Source: Patescibacteria group bacterium (GTDB lineage Bacteria > Patescibacteriota > Minisyncoccia > Phycocordibacterales > XYD1-FULL-46-19). From it: a DNA stretch of 11,762 nt. The notes below the pieces were generated by a model. That model was not told where the DNA came from. It was given only the letters and a program-made list of their open reading frames with translations, and did not search any database. The stretch spans positions 1 through 11,762 of the forward strand of contig JAUPVZ010000015.1 of NCBI GenBank assembly GCA_030916795.1, written 5' to 3'. The translations under genes were made by a program, and so were the position numbers. Of this stretch, positions 5,565 through 8,753 are shown one piece after another; within the stretch, counting starts at the first letter, position 1; each line of letters opens with the position of its first letter.

Positions 5565-5659
5565 TTATACTTGTTACTGGTTAATAGGCCAGCCCAACGG
5601 ACTTGAGGGGGATCTGTGTATGTTGCACTGATTTGAAACGTTCATTTACAAAAAAAGTT

Positions 5660-5734
5660 AAGCTGCTAGGGTATCGAACCCAAAACTTCGGAAGGTCCCA
5701 TTTGGACAACCTGCAGGAGTCCTGCGTGAAGCTT
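5660..5734 (-). ncRNA. 75-nt tRNA-like cloverleaf without a normal anticodon arm (candidate structured RNA or degenerate tRNA)
   Basis: Read on the minus strand, the ends AAGCTTC and GCAGCTT pair at six of seven positions like an acceptor stem. Next to the 3' strand is GGG-TTCGATA-CCC, an almost perfect tRNA T-arm with a 7-nt loop in the right place (one mismatch in the five-pair stem). The rest is abnormal. The D-arm position holds GCAGG-act-CCTGC, a five-pair stem with a 3-nt loop, and the anticodon position holds an AGGT/ACCT or GTCC/GGAC hairpin without a 7-nt loop or U33. No CCA is encoded. T-runs follow on both strands (5650-5657 for minus, 5736-5740 for plus). It lies in the convergent spacer between the MFS and helicase genes. 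Alternatives are a decayed tRNA, a tRNA-mimicking small RNA or a 3'-UTR structure. No identity is assigned. Confidence 0.4.
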
Positions 5735-5804
5735 ATTTTTTCTCACCCCAAGTTTGGTCAAGCTGGATCATCAGTGTGTTCTTCTTTTTTATTAAAAACA
5801 ACTC

Positions 5805-7310
5805 CTATTTCATCAATTCTCGCAACCGGCAATAATCACACTTGGGGTCAGCACAGGTTTTATTCCAAAAAGATAGGCTGAGAATTTCATTGGCTACTTG
5901 CTCAATAGTTTTTTTTAATTCTTGTACCTGTTCACCAGTAATTTTAAATTTCTCTTTCTTATATTTACCGCTACTGTTAGGTTCAATAAAATCAATCTCC
6001 CCTGATACCATTTGATATTTTCCGTCTTCAAACAAGTTTAGTAAAAGTTGATAAAAAACCAATTGGCGAAAATAGTTTCCATCGGCCTCTTTGGTCTCAC
6101 CCAAAATTTGATTACGGCTTTTTGGTTTACCGGTCTTATAATCCACCACATTTACATTGTTACCACTTTCCAAAAATTCAATTTTATCTAAATTTCCTAC
6201 CAGTTTTACGCCCGATGTGAGCAAAACTCCCTTGATTTTAAATTCGGTCAAAACATTAAAGTTGAAGTTGGGCGAGTATGTCTCATGCCAACCAGCGAGC
6301 GCTTTCTGGCCTTTAGCCAAGGTTTCCAAAAAGTCTTGATGGGACAACGGTGCATCTTTCAATCGGCGTTCAAAACTGGCCAACAACCCCTCGAGATTAA
6401 GGCCCTTATCTTTGGCCCGAGCAAAAACATCCTGCAGGGCCCCATGGATAGCCGACCCGTACAATTGGTGCTTTTCGGGGATTGCCGGTAGGCGGATTAG
6501 ATTTCGATAAAAATATTGCCAAGGACAGATTAAATAGTTATTTAAGGCGGTCACCGATAACCCCTGCCCAGCAAAAAGCTCGGCGATAAATTCTTTATCT
6601 TTCAAGCTGTGATCCTTTTCTTCTGCTGGTAAAAGCAGTCGGACTTGGTCTTCTTGGCTAGAGACATTCCATTTCTCTACATCCACATATTCAATCAACT
6701 CTGGGTTTAGGTCAGTCACAAATCGACTAGGGCTTTGTTCTTTACCCCCTTCTCCTAATACCGAATAAGTTATAGTTAGTCCCGCCTTAGCTCTGGTCAA
6801 CGCCACATAAAACAACCTTCGTTCATCGTCATCATCAACAGCCTCATAATCTATTTTGCTGTTGTTCGACAACTTATATACCTCACTTAATAATTTTAGT
6901 TTGTCCCGATTGTGCCGCCCGCCAAAGTGCCCATCATAAGCCCCCACAATATAAACATATTCAAATTCCAGCCCCTTGGCTTTGTGTGCGGTAAGCAACC
7001 GAACCTTACCTTTCTGTCCCCCAACTCGTTTTTTCTTTAAAACAATTTTATGTTTTTTGGCTATACTTAAGAATTCCAAAAAATTAAGCAATTTCGCTTC
7101 CGGATTACTCTCAACCACTGATGCCAGCAACTCAAAAAAGGCTGCTACGCTCTCTAGCCGCTCGCGAGCTTTTGGGTCACGGACTATATATTCAACCAAC
7201 TTTGACTGTTTTAAAATAGTTTCAGCAAACGACAATAAACCATTATTTTCGCCCATAACCTTCCAATCAGATAATAAAGAGAAGGTAAGTGGCGCCTGTT
7301 TCTCCAGCAC
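5805..7310 (-). CDS. UvrD-type helicase, C-terminal half with RecB/AddB-like Fe-S nuclease domain (downstream of in-frame TAG)
   Basis: This 501-codon frame (first usable start GTG 7310) continues the upstream helicase frame exactly, after TAG and four codons. It holds helicase motif V, LTAHKAKGLEFEYVYI (about residues 106-121), and motif VI, DDERRLFYVALTRAKAG (about 161-177). A PD-(D/E)XK nuclease of the RecB/AddB/Cas4 type follows: GSAIHGAL (His289), TEFKIKG (Glu356), GNLDKIE (Asp374), VVDYKTGK (Asp390, Lys392) and QLVFY (Gln416, Tyr420). Cys262 plus the terminal C-x4-C-x2-C (486, 491, 494) match an AddB/Cas4-style 4Fe-4S clamp. Intact, the enzyme would unwind and cut DNA in break repair or recombination. 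No Shine-Dalgarno precedes the GTG, so separate translation is doubtful. The gene ends with TAG. Confidence 0.85.
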   Translation of the reverse strand: MLEKQAPLTFSLLSDWKVMGENNGLLSFAETILKQSKLVEYIVRDPKARERLESVAAFFELLASVVESNPEAKLLNFLEFLSIAKKHKIVLKKKRVGGQKGKVRLLTAHKAKGLEFEYVYIVGAYDGHFGGRHNRDKLKLLSEVYKLSNNSKIDYEAVDDDDERRLFYVALTRAKAGLTITYSVLGEGGKEQSPSRFVTDLNPELIEYVDVEKWNVSSQEDQVRLLLPAEEKDHSLKDKEFIAELFAGQGLSVTALNNYLICPWQYFYRNLIRLPAIPEKHQLYGSAIHGALQDVFARAKDKGLNLEGLLASFERRLKDAPLSHQDFLETLAKGQKALAGWHETYSPNFNFNVLTEFKIKGVLLTSGVKLVGNLDKIEFLESGNNVNVVDYKTGKPKSRNQILGETKEADGNYFRQLVFYQLLLNLFEDGKYQMVSGEIDFIEPNSSGKYKKEKFKITGEQVQELKKTIEQVANEILSLSFWNKTCADPKCDYCRLRELMK

Positions 7311-7322
7311 TTTGATTAGGGG

Positions 7323-7325
7323 CTA
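7323..7325 (-). other. In-frame TAG interrupting the UvrD helicase-nuclease gene
   Basis: Minus-strand frame: ...CAT GAA GAA AAA TAG CCC CTA ATC AAA GTG... The reading frame is identical on both sides, and no indel is needed to join the two halves into about 982 residues. TAG also ends the MFS gene, the yqeY gene, the 59-aa orphan gene and this gene itself, so it is a genuine stop codon here. A single base change from CAG, AAG, GAG, TGG or TAY would create it. Confidence 0.9.
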
Positions 7326-8753
7326 TTTTTCTTCATGGGCTTGGCGTAAATATTGATAAGTGTCGATTGGTGCCACTCCTATAAAATCAATATGTAATAA
7401 TTTGGCCAATTTAGAGTCATCCCCAAAAAAAGCGACCGCCTCAAATACAGTGATTAATTTTTGAATATCTAAATCTGTCCACAAATCATCATCAGACTCT
7501 ACTGCCAAAGGTACGCCCAGTTTGCGTAATACTGAGGACAAAAAAATCGCGTCACGATTGTCTCGATACAAAACAGCTATATCGTGAGGCATTACCCCTG
7601 TCGCAATTTTTTGGTTTATATCTTGGCCTAGGAAAAAGTATTCGGCCAGGGTCGAGCCAAAGCCCCCCACCCTAATCGGCAGATTATCATTTTCTATTTG
7701 AGCCAATAATTTGGCCTTACTTGGCAACAAAATTTCAGCCTGATTTAAAATATTTTGACCTGACCGATAATTATTAGTCAGGGTAACCACCTTGGCCTGG
7801 GGGTAAAGATGAGAAAAATAAAAGAAGTTTTCCAAAGATGCCCCCTGAAACCGAAATATGGCCTGTTTTTCATCACCCACCACAAACAGATTGGGGTTAG
7901 GGTGAAAATTGGCAATTAATTCTAATATTTTATTTTGGGCATTATTTGTATCTTGATGCTCATCAACTAGAATATATTGATATTCTTCTTGCAACATCGA
8001 CAACAAAGTTGGGTTGGTCCGCAATTCTCGCAAAACCTCCATTATCATATCGTTAAAGTCATAGAGCTTTTTTTCATTCAAGCTATTCTCATATTGCTCA
8101 TAGACCAGCGCCAACTCTAAATTTTTATCGATTTCTCGGCGTAAACGTTCATACCCCTTTTTAATTTTTCCTTTGTACAAACCCTTGTCGTGATACAAAT
8201 CTGGAATTTGCCAATAATCACTATCGGCCTTGGCACAAATATTTTTATATTCTTCAACACTAATTCCTTCTCTCTTTAAATCACTAATCACCGCCACCAT
8301 ACTACGAATATAATAATCAGGATCACCATAGGGTCGCAAAATCTTCACCGGCAATGTAGCCACGACTTTTTCTAACAGAGCAATTTGATCAATCTCGGTA
8401 ATACTAGTCGAACCAATAATCCTCGGGAATTCTTCGGGATAAGTCTTAATTATATTGTTACAAAAACCGTGAAAAGTATTTATCACCACTTGGTAGGCCC
8501 GACTACCCATCAAAAAAGCTAAACGTTCACGCATATTGCCTGTCGCATTTTCGGTAAAAGTTAAAGCCAAAATTTGCTCTGGGGCCGTGTCGGTCTGACG
8601 CAAAATATTGGCAATCCTCATCGCCAAGATCTGGGTTTTGCCAGTCCCTGGACCAGCAATAACCATCACCGGTCCCTCGATAGCATCTACGGCCTCTTTT
8701 TGGGCCTTATTTAGACCTTTGTAGACCTCTTTAAAGTTTTTTTCGTCTGCCAT
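7323..8753 (-). CDS. UvrD/PcrA-type superfamily 1 helicase, N-terminal half (ends at in-frame TAG)
   Basis: The 476-residue product carries the first half of an SF1A DNA helicase. The Q motif is GLNKAQKEAV (13-22), Walker A is AGPGTGKT (33-40), motif Ia is LALTFTENATGNMRERL (63-79), and INTFHGFC lies at 91-98. Walker B is ILVDEHQDTN (261-270), motif III is VVGDEKQAIFRFQGA (291-305), and motif IV is TLTNNYRSGQNIL (324-336). Family members use ATP to move 3'-to-5' on single-stranded DNA. Motifs V and VI are missing because TAG stops the frame early in domain 2; they lie in the next frame downstream. Alone it lacks the arginine-finger motif VI and should not hydrolyse ATP normally. Start ATG 8753 has no Shine-Dalgarno but has an extended -10 box 7 nt upstream. 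Confidence 0.9.
   Translation of the reverse strand: MADEKNFKEVYKGLNKAQKEAVDAIEGPVMVIAGPGTGKTQILAMRIANILRQTDTAPEQILALTFTENATGNMRERLAFLMGSRAYQVVINTFHGFCNNIIKTYPEEFPRIIGSTSITEIDQIALLEKVVATLPVKILRPYGDPDYYIRSMVAVISDLKREGISVEEYKNICAKADSDYWQIPDLYHDKGLYKGKIKKGYERLRREIDKNLELALVYEQYENSLNEKKLYDFNDMIMEVLRELRTNPTLLSMLQEEYQYILVDEHQDTNNAQNKILELIANFHPNPNLFVVGDEKQAIFRFQGASLENFFYFSHLYPQAKVVTLTNNYRSGQNILNQAEILLPSKAKLLAQIENDNLPIRVGGFGSTLAEYFFLGQDINQKIATGVMPHDIAVLYRDNRDAIFLSSVLRKLGVPLAVESDDDLWTDLDIQKLITVFEAVAFFGDDSKLAKLLHIDFIGVAPIDTYQYLRQAHEEK

Follow-up and report, generated by a model that had tools for sequence, protein, structure and literature searches.

An interrupted helicase-nuclease gene

The window, meaning the whole 11,762-nucleotide stretch that was analysed, is a complete contig (C42) of a draft metagenome assembly of 461,735 bases in 59 contigs, estimated to be 80.12% complete. 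Its minus strand carries a helicase-nuclease gene whose reading frame is crossed by a single TAG. The features of the locus are as follows.

7326..8753, minus strand: frame before the TAG, 476 aa, UvrD/PcrA-like helicase with Walker A, Walker B and the first part of UvrD_C
7323..7325, minus strand: in-frame TAG, codon 477, at a variable alignment column
5808..7322, minus strand: frame after the TAG, 505 codons, with motifs V and VI, a PD-(D/E)XK nuclease and four conserved Cys
7308..7310, minus strand: GTG, the earliest possible start 3' of the TAG, with no Shine-Dalgarno-like sequence seen by eye in the preceding 20 bases
7254..7256, minus strand: ATG, the second possible start 3' of the TAG, corresponding to the 483-aa frame P0241 in the protein database
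5805..5807, minus strand: terminal stop of the gene, also TAG

Translation of the minus strand from 8753 to 5805 yields 476 residues, the TAG at 7325-7323, 505 residues and the terminal TAG, or 982 codons before the last stop, in agreement with a first-pass annotation that described about 982 residues in one frame divided by one TAG. UvrD-helicase (E 5e-67), UvrD_C and PDDEXK_1 (E 2e-26), as defined by Pfam, all lie in this one frame. The first is upstream of the TAG and the last downstream, while UvrD_C is cut by it, with profile positions 2-141 before and 231-348 after, so that the order proposed earlier, UvrD motifs followed by a PD-(D/E)XK nuclease, is recovered. UvrD_C begins in the first piece, after the UvrD/REP N-terminal domain, and ends in the second, ahead of the nuclease. 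This content bears out the further claim that the TAG parts Walker A/B from motifs V/VI. When the protein is aligned to PcrA, the TAG falls near mid-chain, at what we take to be the interval after motif IV and before motif V, and the first piece, having neither motif V nor motif VI, should be inactive as a helicase. An alignment with 30 homologues shows no variation at nuclease residues Cys 743, 967, 972 and 975 or in the D871-Y-K873 stretch.

Neighbouring genes in the window encode an SBP_bac_5 protein, RNase J, an MFS protein, YqeY, a DUF389 protein and a pseudouridine synthase. Between the MFS gene and the helicase, at 5655-5735 on the minus strand, is a stretch resembling a tRNA; it has a GGGTTCGATACCC arm and folds much like a cloverleaf (z -1.64), and neither ARAGORN nor Rfam calls it a tRNA. 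Elsewhere in the assembly, ARAGORN places a tmRNA gene at L099:4656-5035 (contig C3).

Relatives of the gene and constraint beyond the TAG

A full-length, one-piece homologue occurs in 29 of the 60 relatives searched, with the three domains uninterrupted and a stop in none. The alignment of homologues that the first-pass annotation had called for shows a variable column at the TAG site, occupied among 30 homologues by K (9), R (6), Q (6), I (5) and L, T, E and A (1 each). The nearest genome compared, G001, is of the same genus as that of the window. Over the 505 codons that follow the TAG, identity to it is 67.5%, so the openness of this frame is beyond chance. The next full-length relatives, among the matches listed, are 71% identical. 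At no invariant column does the window alone deviate, whether before the TAG (0/138) or after it (0/85). Because dS against the nearest genome was saturated or not computable, codon-position counts and trees were used instead. Changes at third positions exceed the mean of the first two positions 2.83-fold before the TAG and 2.51-fold after. With the node shared by the five nearest sequences as origin, the branch of the window is 0.281 before the TAG (0.244-0.318 for the other four) and 0.358 after it (0.272-0.416). Identity to the nearest relative does fall, from 74.8% in the first half to 67.5% in the half after the TAG, reaching 59.7% over codons 478-730, and decay was considered as the cause but rejected, since the relatives span the same range of branch lengths. 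Compared with its intact relatives, the gene is therefore interrupted in the assembly as given, with no relaxation of constraint after the lesion. The earlier claim that no decay is visible stands, although the 501 codons over which it was made were counted from GTG 7310, and the open frame has 505.

Matches at E <= 1e-80 occur in 164 of 297 genomes sampled from the order, and among the matches listed stops occur only in the window (one TAG), G230 (three TGA) and G210 (one TGA). A search of public proteins for a second allele, in which the best 120 of 8000 scored candidates per search were considered, gave no allele beyond the two pieces of the window itself, P0121 and P0241. In another family, G018 carries a homologue (C4:147722-150626) broken by a frame change and two TAG, likely a real pseudogene. 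The homologue frames L201 and L214, from genomes G607 and G356 of the class, are broken or split before the C-terminal part. A Paceibacterota draft homologue (L041:1655-3094) has four in-frame TGA, of which two coincide exactly with columns of conserved Trp (745 and 963), and the 499-aa homologues P0198, P0212, P0213 and P0215 likewise end near a Trp column. This suggests that TGA is read as Trp.

Lone stops across the draft and their explanation

To place the TAG in context, 80% of the draft (370,648 bases) was compared with 613,444 bases of G001 through the ORFs of at least 100 aa called in each, using tblastn both ways. A counterpart in the draft was found for 259 G001 ORFs (78,332 codons), with 10 in-frame stop calls. 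Four of the 259 genes were judged by eye to have a clean lone stop; their families were assigned by Pfam.

Window 7325: helicase-nuclease, TAG
L096:428 (contig C46): Cpn60/groEL, TAA
L142:5397 (contig C22): rpsG, encoding ribosomal protein S7 (uS7), TAA
L161:4920 (contig C44): uvrC, encoding UvrC, TAA

The other six calls were discarded: two in L100, where identity is 50%; L096:9234, whose flanks match at 2 and 3 of 12 residues; one in L120, in a frame with many stops; and two in L118, whose 112-aa ORF lies close to a tRNA-Ile gene and is presumably not a real gene. In the reverse direction, 255 draft ORFs gave seven stop calls, none clean. Three in L100 (48% identity), two in L113 (47%) and one in L142 (flanks 6 and 2) were dropped, and one in L119 (TGA, flanks 4 and 9 of 12) is ambiguous. 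Frameshift-like cases were found in neither direction. Since 4/259 versus 0/255 gives p = 0.12, the count of stops is weak by itself. The evidence weighs instead on uS7, whose loss is hardly viable for a cell. The single rpsG match in this assembly bears the stop, while no stop is seen in 35 other matched genomes among the 40 relatives searched. Overall, rpsG was matched in 36 of 41 genomes; the five relatives with no match reflect either a miss by the search or an absent contig. As a cell can hardly dispense with S7, this stop at least is either absent from most cells or read through. The one groEL copy here also has its stop, and 17 other copies have none.

Most likely, in our view, the metagenome draft, which is fragmented, has a wrong or minority base in its consensus at the helicase TAG. 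The first-pass annotation had offered three options, a very recent mutation, readthrough and an assembly variant. The last, if extended to cover any wrong or minority base, is preferred, since lone stops also occur in three other conserved genes, one of them the only rpsG gene. Readthrough gained no support, and recent mutation is left as the main rival. The four stops would then share a cause, presumably a technical one. That the stop codons and the aligned residues differ from case to case is in keeping with substitutions rather than with one suppressor. With no frameshift seen, the best fit is a scatter of base substitutions in a draft as fragmented as this one. Were all four errors, the implied rate would be about 4e-4 substitutions per base, with a rough range of 1e-4 to 1e-3. 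For two of the four stops a contig end is no more than about 430 bases away, and such ends make up 11% of the sequence (p 0.06). Other observations count against this reading. The helicase TAG sits in the middle of its contig, and of the 12 residues that follow it only 3 match the relative. Outside the stops there is no excess of odd residues at conserved columns (0/223 in the helicase, 1/129 in GroEL). Excess internal stops are described in PMC11017572 as a mark of poor assemblies that depends on coverage and read quality, and PMC7111523 reports local errors in uncurated metagenome drafts. The literature searched held no account of this interrupted helicase-nuclease.

If the favoured reading is correct, living cells of this Vogelbacteria-like Parcubacterium would make one protein of about 982 residues from an otherwise intact single-chain gene. 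Its SF1 motor would unwind DNA ends and its fused PD-(D/E)XK nuclease would cut the strands, as in AddAB/RecBCD end processing. Both the unwinding and the cutting are predicted from domain content.

The main rival is a true, recent nonsense mutation, by which the gene would have newly become a pseudogene in this strain or population. We regard this as unlikely, though clearly the best of the other accounts. A very young lesion would likewise leave no decay after the TAG. The gene is also dispensable in the group, as its match in 164 of 297 genomes of the order indicates; G018 has its broken copy; and another intact UvrD/PcrA-like helicase (a 642-aa frame on C16) remains in this genome. For groEL and the helicase a genuine loss is conceivable, the former being missing from 4 of 21 genomes and the latter from many. 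Against this, the mutation would be a separate event in a draft whose rpsG, groEL and uvrC stops it leaves unexplained, and no full-length relative is interrupted.

It is improbable that the TAG instead ends a working helicase part, with a restart at GTG 7310 or ATG 7256 giving a two-chain enzyme. Other Parcubacteria do seem to encode the helicase-nuclease in two neighbouring genes, with eight candidate pairs whose two members come from contigs of equal length (P0122/P0355, P0125/P0352, P0126/P0328, P0128/P0308, P0133/P0335, P0140/P0346, P0141/P0318 and P0146/P0349), and the fold may tolerate a cut between motifs V and VI. In that natural form, however, the cut comes some 150 residues later, and the second piece begins with a new N-terminus of its own, whereas the cut here lies inside the helicase, nothing resembling a ribosome site precedes GTG 7310, and the relatives are uncut. 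In the two-gene form, first pieces of 629-675 aa end shortly past motif V and second pieces of 345-395 aa begin immediately ahead of motif VI and frequently carry a new, MPK-rich start. This arrangement would place the motif VI arginine on a different chain from the Walker motifs. It was not seen in the class, where 383 genomes gave 51 matches. In a Nomurabacteria genome (L033:4744-5509), about 765 bases occupy the split site. They separate the two pieces and contain a membrane-like ORF of 198 aa and low complexity, and Rfam recognised no intron in them.

Programmed or suppressor-driven readthrough of the TAG is more doubtful still. The downstream frame is fully constrained, and tRNAs for Met, Phe, Asp and Asn are missing from the genes recovered, an incomplete set that leaves room for a suppressor. 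The suppressor search proposed earlier was run, and none of the 30 tRNA genes in this incomplete set has a CUA anticodon; a scan of the sampled contigs gave the same answer. No stimulating structure was found, the fold after the TAG being ordinary (z -0.72, with 38 of 200 shuffles as good), the gene's own terminator is TAG, and the conservation of the stop expected of programmed readthrough is contradicted by 0/29 full-length relatives. Global recoding of TAG is rejected. In the window, TAG terminates the MFS gene, YqeY, DUF389, a 60-codon ORF and the helicase-nuclease itself, and among 297 ORFs of at least 120 aa in sampled contigs of this assembly it terminates 82 (TAA 170, TGA 45). An intact RF1-like gene is also present, which we assign to RF1 by what we take to be its PAT motif. 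The first-pass annotation was thus right to set a global code change aside. A missing RF2 was also considered and rejected. The assembly has one PF00472 match but the same-genus genome has two, so the RF2 gene is probably in the missing part of the assembly.

Equally hard to credit, and overlapping with readthrough, is that this organism reads through UAA and UAG so often that stray stops are tolerated in genes as essential as rpsG, making all four stops real and neutral or nearly so. Explanations other than these hardly enter into consideration.

As biology, the interrupted gene is most likely void, and its use is as a quality warning on the draft. One candidate for readthrough or gene fission in the Patescibacteria would thereby be removed, and other genes of this draft may also hold wrong bases. 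Counting lone stops in genes that cannot be lost is a cheap check on a draft before biology is read into any one stop. Should the stops prove real, this minimal bacterium would offer a striking example of stop suppression.

Likeness to known systems

The window protein shares with the SF1 helicases UvrD, PcrA and Rep the motifs in order and the UvrD-helicase and UvrD_C domains, and its best solved relative is PcrA (1pjr, E 4.8e-60). It differs from all three in falling below their NCBIfam cut-offs and in having a C-terminal nuclease. The pairing of an SF1 motor with a PD-(D/E)XK nuclease is shared with AddAB and RecBCD, and the four conserved Cys recall the AddB-type Fe-S nuclease, from which we presume an Fe-S role for them here. 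Unlike AddAB/RecBCD, it is one chain of about 980 residues, and its two pieces, scanned apart, fall below the curated cut-offs of the NCBIfam AddA, AddB and RecB equivalogs. PADLOC matches to the GajB, RTasHel and Cas4 models were taken as general helicase/nuclease resemblance. The interruption itself resembles the spurious pseudogenes treated in PMC11017572, in that lone stops occur in intact conserved genes of a fragmented draft with no frameshift. That work used RefSeq assemblies and reassembled reads, whereas the present case is judged from the assembly alone.
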